From positions 1 to 33,532 of the forward strand of contig JAJVHV010000042.1 of NCBI GenBank assembly GCA_022072445.1: a stretch of DNA of 33,532 nt. Direction: 5' to 3'. Each line of letters opens with the position of its first letter. Within the stretch, counting starts at the first letter, position 1. Origin of the DNA: Phycisphaerae bacterium (GTDB taxonomy: Bacteria; Planctomycetota; Phycisphaerae; UBA1845; Fen-1342). Both the position numbers and the translations under genes were made by a program. Shown here piece after piece: positions 125 through 1,122 of the stretch. Below the pieces are notes generated by a model. That model worked only from the letters and a program-made list of their open reading frames with translations, was not told the DNA's origin and did no database searches.

Positions 125-1042
125 AAGAAACCGCTCCCTGACGGTCGCGGCGCTGACCGGTGCGGGCGCTGGAACTGAGCCGCGCGCGTGAGCAAGCGGT
201 TTCCTGGCCAAGCCGGAGTGCCAGCGGCGATCGAGGGATTTTCGCGCTGGGCTGAGAAACCGCTCCGTGACGGTCGCGGCGCTGAGGTGCGGGCGCTGGA
301 ACTGAGCCGCGCGCGTGAGCAAGCGGTTTCCTGGCCAAGCCGGAGTGCGAGCGGCGATCGATGGATTTTCGCGTTGGGCTAAGAAACCGCTCCGTGACGG
401 TCGCGGCGCTGAGGTGCGGGCCCTGGAACTGAGCCGCGCGCGTGAGCAAGCGGTTTCCTGGCCAAGCCGGAGTGCCAGCGGCGATCGAGGGATTCTCGCG
501 CGGGGCTAAGAAACCGCTCCCTGACGGTCGCGGCGCTGACCGGTGCGGGCGCTGGAACTGAGCCGCGCGCGTGAGCAAGCGGTTTCCTGGCCAAGCCGGA
601 GTGCCAGCGGCGATCGAGGGATTTTCGCGCGGGGCTAAGAAACCGCTCCCTGCCGGTCGCGGCGCTGACCGGTGCGGGCGCTGGAACTGAGCCGCGCGCG
701 TGAGCAAGCGGTTTCCTGGCCAAGCCGGAGTGCGAGCGGCGATCGAGGGATTTTCGCGTTGGGCGAAGAAACCGCTCCCTGACGGTCGCGGCGCTGACCG
801 GTGCGGGCGCTGGAACTGAGCCGCGCGCGTGAGCAAGCGGTTTCCTGGCCAAGCCGGAGTGCGAGCGGCGATCGATGGATTTTCGCGTTGGGCGAAGAAA
901 CCGCTCCCTGACGGTCGCGGCGCTGACCGGTGCGGGCCCTGGAACTGAGCCGCGCGCGTGAGCAAGCGGTTTCCTGGCCAAGCCGGAGTGCGAGCGGCGA
1001 TCGATGGATTTTCGCGTTGGGCTAAGAAACCGCTCCCTGACG
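125..1042. repeat. Tandem array, seven 127/129-bp units, each an inverted pair of REP-like arms
   Basis: The word gaaaccgct recurs at 127, 256, 383, 510, 639, 768, 897 and 1026, and its reverse complement agcggtttc falls once inside each unit (the first at 195-203). Spacing is 129 bp or 127 bp; the difference is a two-base cc in ctgaccggtg versus ctgaggtg. The plus-strand arm (gaaaccgctccctgacggtc and what follows) and the minus-strand arm (gaaaccgcttgctcacgcgc) match at about 20 of 25 positions, so each unit is an inverted pair within a direct tandem repeat. The spacer holds a variable agtgcgagcggcgatcg segment. Units are near-identical, which suggests recent amplification or homogenisation. 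It is not CRISPR-like because there are no unique spacers. Open frames across it on both strands follow from the repeat and are not called as genes. Confidence 0.93.
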
Positions 1043-1122
1043 GTCGCGGCTCGGATACGCGGGTCGCGGCTCGGATCGCCCCGTCGCGGTTCGGATACGC
1101 GGGTCGCGGCTCGGACCTGGCC
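1043..1122. repeat. Mini-array, four 20-bp units
   Basis: Four consecutive 20-bp units start at 1043, 1063, 1083 and 1103, each opening with gtcgcggctcgga or gtcgcggttcgga; the first and third continue with tacgcgg. The first unit coincides with the end of the last long-array arm (gacggtcgcggc), so the mini-array seems to have grown out of that arm. It ends 10 bases before the fumC stop codon on the opposite strand. Confidence 0.9.

Follow-up and report, generated by a model that had tools for sequence, protein, structure and literature searches.

A tandem array beside fumC in a Phycisphaerae bacterium is probably a cluster of REPINs, with candidate transposase partners in frame within alaS

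The array on the 3' side of fumC

The window, by which we mean the whole stretch of 33,532 bp that was analysed, is contig C38 of a Phycisphaerae assembly of 5.25 Mb in 50 contigs. It opens with the end of an insertion sequence (IS), followed by a tandem array that starts about 125 bp from the contig end and then by fumC, which is encoded on the minus strand with the array on its 3' side, directly after the gene as an earlier note on this DNA had placed it. Relatives of fumC with up to 77% identity were present in the genome contigs searched, and by these the bacterium belongs to Planctomycetota, closest to MAGs of Phycisphaerae type. Scans of the window against Rfam and for tRNA and tmRNA genes gave no match. 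The features, named in the terms developed below, are as follows.

1-122, no strand assigned: end of a multi-copy IS, inserted at CTAAG (123-127) in a REPIN spacer (shared contig ends)
127-155, minus: orphan A-type REP arm, right half of an IS-cut REPIN (arm match, immediately preceded by the spacer end CTAAG)
175-284, plus: REPIN 1, core 179-280, feet CTGA and GCTG (B arm, 54 bp, A arm; 78-bp spacing)
302-411, plus: REPIN 2, core 306-407 (element alignment)
429-538, plus: REPIN 3, core 433-534 (element alignment)
558-667, plus: REPIN 4, core 562-663 (element alignment)
687-796, plus: REPIN 5, core 691-792 (element alignment)
816-925, plus: REPIN 6, core 820-921 (element alignment)
945-1054, plus: REPIN 7, core 949-1050 (element alignment)
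1042-1115, no strand assigned: short tandem repeat, 20 bp x 3.7, of the foot-proximal half of the A arm, GGTCGCGGCTCGGATACGCG (TRF, sequence)
1133-2554, minus: fumC, class II fumarate hydratase, with the array 3' of it (473-aa ORF)

TRF delimits the array as a 129-bp tandem repeat at 123-1050, with 7.2 copies and 96% matches. Two sequences that within the window are confined to the array alternate strictly along it, namely GAAACCGCT, in eight copies starting at 127, 256, 383, 510, 639, 768, 897 and 1026, and AGCGGTTTC, in seven copies starting at 195, 322, 449, 578, 707, 836 and 965. Successive units are 129, 127, 127, 129, 129, 129 and 129 bp long, and the two arms of a unit are identical at 21/27 positions. 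The TRF limits and the arm positions agree with the original description of tandem 127/129-bp units that hold inverted arm pairs.

Variation among the seven units is mosaic, with 12 variable columns, and 20 site pairs fail the four-gamete test, which argues for exchange between units rather than plain stepwise duplication. This pattern supports homogenisation of the units by recombination as their probable history. Exact repeats inside the array reach 125 bp, and stretches of up to 126 bp recur without change at several contig ends, which suggests a short-read assembly, so that the count of seven units is provisional; the array itself is real, and doubt is limited to the exact number of units. 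Short tandem repeats of about 20 bp, made of the foot-proximal arm half as at 1042-1115, are also found beside REPs at another locus (L119:1190-1340).

The REP arm and its copies

Arm structure was studied on stretches chosen for holding arms, and copy numbers were taken from genome-wide pattern searches. The arm pattern AAACCGCTNNCTNACGNNCGCGGC has 321 matches in the genome (163 + 158) and 0 in a reversed control, and a sister family with CCCC/GGGG stems has 248 (135 + 113), again with 0 in the control. The repeat had been read as REP- or BIME-like from the window, and the 321 dispersed copies confirm that it is no local satellite. The first form of the arm is unevenly distributed among 30 relatives: six genomes have 269, 241, 74, 59, 53 and 20 copies, eight have at most 10, and the others have none.

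Read 5' to 3', the arm runs CnGA-GCCGC-nn-nC-GTnA-Gn-nn-GCGG-TTTC, its outer stem being CCGC/GCGG or CCCC/GGGG and its inner pair C-G or G-C. Most of 245 arms have CnGA as their foot (CCGA in 213, CTGA in 9, CAGA in 5 and CGGA in 3), in place of the GTAG or CGTC end tag of the REP super-families of those names. In 20 distinct arms, 96.7% of cells are paired as against 83.9% in shuffles (0/500), with a covariation score of 0.27 as against 0.07. Across 99 doublets, the stem pairs within arms are Watson-Crick in 1176/1188 cases, whereas corresponding positions between the two arms match in only 944/1188, and the inner pair 7-14 differs between the arms in 96/99 doublets, with both arms still paired in each of them. 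Conservation therefore concerns a small hairpin in each arm and not a long arm-to-arm pairing. Single-arm DNA folding energies are unexceptional against shuffles (z -1.2 and -0.5), so that it is covariation which argues for the hairpin. By this measure each arm forms a REP hairpin in which changes are compensated, with CnGA as its 5' foot.

The putative mobile unit

The spacing of arm pairs was measured among 319 arms in fetched stretches. Neighbouring pairs with their feet outside number 119, with 99 of them at 76-79 bp and 82 at exactly 78 bp, the spacing of REPIN 1, whereas the 94 neighbouring pairs with feet inside lie at scattered distances; the isolated doublets are feet-outside in 6/6 cases. 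Fixed spacing in the one phase and scatter in the other identify the dispersed, putatively mobile unit as a doublet of about 110 bp with its feet outside, which is a REPIN.

Its layout is a CnGA foot, a B-type hairpin, TTTC, a spacer of about 54 bp, GAAA, an A-type hairpin and a TCnG foot, and it is nearly always an A/B heterodimer of arms. The 99 aligned elements contain 79 distinct cores; most share a related spacer (cctggccgagcgggagtgcgagctgcggtcgagggattctcgcgcggggctaag) and some have other spacers. Among the seven in the window, only REPIN 7 has the canonical right foot TCGG (CCGA). The family thus combines what characterises REPINs: a REP with more than 100 copies, an inverted doublet with fixed spacing and a conserved spacer, and the same REPs flanking a REP-associated tyrosine transposase (RAYT). 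In the earlier note each unit could fold as a 77-base stem-loop; that fold exists (RNA -43 kcal/mol; DNA -23.1, z -2.3), but the unit had been drawn in the wrong phase, the 77-mer being the junction between neighbouring elements.

The insertion sequence at the contig end

Five contig ends (C38, C19, C18, C32 and C12) carry the stretch at 1-122 with 100% identity over 118-126 bp, each time with CTAAG or CTTAG directly after the IS end, and a related inverted IS end, AAAGTGCGAAAGTCGAG, is present on contigs C49, C32, C20, C1 and C8. This IS has the terminal inverted repeat AAAGTGCGAAAGTCGA and the target CTWAG, and its interior is not assembled beside the window. In the window it has entered a REPIN spacer at CTAAG, so that the A arm at 127 is all that is left there of an eighth REPIN, and the window holds seven whole REPINs and one cut by the IS at the contig end. 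That IS elements can target REPs is generally known (PMC1525189); the present IS is not strictly REP-specific, as it also has flanks of unrelated sequence.

Two RAYTs in frame within alaS

Y1 transposase domains (PF01797) number ten in this genome. Two of them, 60% identical to each other, share a single open frame of 1686 aa on the minus strand of contig C11 (68779-73836; L109:2280-7337), which is an alanyl-tRNA synthetase with the Pfam domains tRNA-synt_2c, tRNA_SAD and DHHA1 and an NCBIfam alaS score of 758 bits, besides the two stretches matching PF01797. This frame is the sole alaS in the assembly, and it carries the two RAYTs with flanking REPs at two sites. A RAYT gene had been suggested as something to look for in the complete genome, and the search has yielded these two class-3-like Y1 RAYTs, both flanked by inverted arms.

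One of them (C11:69571-70050) lies between two inverted arms of the array's own REP family, matched with zero mismatches, and the other is flanked by arms of the CCCC/GGGG sister family, so that each RAYT appears to be paired with its own REP family. The CCGA foot is present on all four nearest flanking arms. Unlike the A/B REPINs, these RAYTs are flanked by A/A arms, and no RAYT flanked by B arms was found in this genome. The array is intergenic and the RAYT-flanking arms are intragenic, being translated on both sides of the resident RAYTs as PSRDRKGAV and PLPHGRGSD or similar. Repeats resembling the ~20-bp repeat at 1042-1115 are likewise translated next to a RAYT in alaS.

Both RAYTs carry NHVH and YVLEGQ, and so come near the class-3 signature of NHVH and Y....Q, the fuller consensus YV[VI][AENY]EQ being matched only in part. 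A structural model (pLDDT 76) matches 2f4f, the TnpA proteins of IS200, ISDra2 and IS608, and the RAYT-REP hairpin complex 4er8, which suggests a Y1 domain with the predicted fold of IS200/IS605 TnpA. Against the NCBIfam model REP_Tyr_transpos (NF047646), the class-3-like domain scores 33.3 bits, below the curated cut-off of 80 bits; with the same cut-off the Y1 domain resident in ileS passes at 85.2 and that in purH scores 77.9. Viral contigs searched for RAYT relatives contained none. Across 392 genomes of the phylum, class-3 RAYTs were detected in 13/23 genomes with the REP pattern and in 39/369 of the others (Fisher P 4e-7, uncorrected for phylogeny). No class-3 RAYT was detected in G302 and G307, genomes that are 77% and 86% complete and have 53 and 89 REP matches, and some RAYT genomes contain no arm matching the array's REP pattern.

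RAYTs within essential genes of relatives

An order-wide scan of 114 genomes found class-3 RAYTs in 52, with about one-third of the hits in open frames longer than 600 aa. GC-rich DNA can give long open frames by chance, and for this reason only confirmed host genes were counted. Class-3-like Y1 domains are in frame, with Pfam confirmation, within alaS (G029), valS (G015, G019 and G228), leuS (G019) and purH (G007, G013 and G024); the RAYT loci in valS, alaS, purH and leuS of relatives are L139, L141, L152, L154, L156, L161, L162, L172 and L173. In alaS the insertion sites recur: site alpha, before DVSYRVIADH, is occupied in nine genomes, site beta, before DAFxLHDT, in three, and site gamma in one, the alpha site of G026 being judged from its left side because the frame stops soon after the RAYT, near a contig edge. 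The NHVH and Y....Q motifs are kept in 13/13 alaS-resident RAYTs.

Several related observations can be set beside these. In the present genome, class-2-like Y1 domains are in frame in purH (C22, L110:1869-4763) and ileS (C27, L113:1867-6801), and a tandem peptide repeat in the same frame, GSIGVPPVSSAQSP, lies around the ileS insert. Two RAYT classes have made repeated use of the purH loop before CFIKHTN, and in relatives the loop that precedes RDWCISRQ in valS has also been used repeatedly. A class-3-like RAYT is also in frame in an Eco57I-type restriction-modification methylase (G321:C1:7397701-7398162; L169).

The persistence of RAYTs was raised as a question by Bertels & Rainey, who put forward addiction or a function for the host as possible answers (PMC3116915). 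We consider it an evenly balanced proposition that the transposase serving this REPIN family is translated in frame as part of an essential enzyme (AlaRS here; ValRS, LeuRS or PurH among relatives), in permissive loops that are used again and again, and that this physical linkage would be the addiction by which RAYTs survive without having to transpose often. If so, a frameshift or stop in the resident transposase would also destroy the host enzyme, and in-frame residence in essential enzymes could explain the persistence of RAYTs; residence in alaS is in this respect a concrete and testable form of the addiction idea. It would also affect the annotation of aminoacyl-tRNA synthetase genes in such genomes. 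At the alpha site, distances between alaS genes and between their resident RAYTs do not correlate (Mantel r 0.10, P 0.38, n=8), which leaves long vertical residence of the RAYT in alaS unsupported and makes repeated insertion or exchange as likely as old residence. A literature search, partial in its coverage, returned intragenic REPs only, and no case of a RAYT that shares the reading frame of a tRNA synthetase.

Origin of the array

The array is best explained, with a probability of roughly 0.88, as a tandem cluster of seven REPINs, non-autonomous elements of about 110 bp that would have been spread by a RAYT and then amplified in tandem. The dispersal in many copies, the compensated hairpins of the arms, the class-3 foot and the inverted arms of the same family around a class-3-like Y1 domain are direct observations. 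On this basis the RAYT would act on single-stranded DNA in the manner of IS200/IS605 TnpA and so spread the REPINs, one REPIN near the 3' end of fumC would have been amplified in tandem through slippage or unequal recombination, and exchange between units would then homogenise the array. Most likely the REPIN array has no dedicated function at fumC.

A function there would be expected of a co-opted RNA element of the fumC transcript, whose minus-strand copy folds strongly and might serve as a terminator or shield the 3' end. The array ends about 80 bp past the fumC stop codon, REPs in other species are mostly downstream of genes (PMC3733652), and the minus-strand RNA has a fold of -458.7 kcal/mol for 1008 nt, a value given without a shuffle control and owed in large part to GC-rich inverted repeats. 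The fumC neighbourhoods of 12 relatives, however, contain no array of this REP, the nearest approach being one pair of divergent arms in G013, which makes a conserved role at fumC unlikely, and we judge an RNA element to be an unlikely reading overall. Rather more doubtful is an element of chromosome architecture, such as a site for gyrase or a nucleoid protein, which is argued by analogy with BIME-2 of Escherichia coli, described as binding gyrase in work cited in PMC2817692. The gross layout is that of BIMEs, with alternating REPs in tandem modules, but the foot of the arm differs from that of GTAG REPs.

A MITE derived from a conventional DDE transposon that ends in inverted repeats would account for terminal inverted arms around a conserved internal spacer, and a genuine IS with terminal inverted repeats adjoins the array; it is nevertheless highly improbable, as the arms fold separately with differences compensated within each arm, the A and B arms are systematically different, arms of this family stand on either side of a Y1 transposase, and the ends of the neighbouring IS are unrelated. 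Least probable of all is a local satellite or assembly artefact, for although the position at a contig end, the 125-bp longest exact repeat and the contig ends sharing up to 126 bp fit a short-read assembly, it is contradicted by hundreds of dispersed copies in the genome, by the many in some relatives and by the mosaic of 12 columns that differ among the units.

Comparison with known systems

Taken alone, the REPIN array adds a long example from Planctomycetota to an arrangement already known, tandem REPIN clusters having been described in Pseudomonas. In P. fluorescens SBW25 such clusters include the flanking sequences, and the largest consists of four REPINs and one REP (PMC3116915). The two systems share an inverted REP doublet of preferred spacing, its dispersal, a RAYT flanked by the same REPs, and ordered tandem clusters of near-identical REPINs that extend to the flanks. 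They differ in the REP sequence, with a CnGA foot here and not GTAG, and in cluster size, with seven REPINs here and at most four there; the systematic A/B heterodimer of arms and the RAYTs in frame inside an essential gene are likewise features of the present system. E. coli BIME-2 is similar in its tandem modules of alternating REPs, and is distinguished by GTAG-tagged REPs, a class 2 RAYT and known gyrase binding. The Rickettsia palindromic elements and intragenic REPs (PMC3733652) are also palindromic mobile repeats within coding genes, including tRNA synthetase genes, but only short repeats are inserted there, whereas here whole RAYT domains and their flanking REPs are in frame.

Also among the closest known systems are the class 3 TnpA Y1 proteins, for which passages of Quentin et al. 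2018 (PMC6006769) describe flanking structures with a 5' CnGA foot together with NHVH and Y....Q motifs, the atypical structures having been found by manual inspection. Those passages and the present system have in common PF01797, both motifs, occurrence in Planctomycetota, 5' CnGA flanks and a high copy number in the host. The tyrosine motif is YVLEGQ here and YV[VI][AENY]EQ there, and A/B doublets, tandem arrays and residence in host genes are reported here and not in the passages concerned. What is new, as far as a partial literature search extends, is a CnGA-foot A/B REPIN system with RAYTs in frame inside an essential gene. The system behind the array matters more than the array itself, as it ties the class-3 Y1 proteins to a defined REP and to a REPIN marked by strong covariation of structure, and locates their genes in frame within essential ones.
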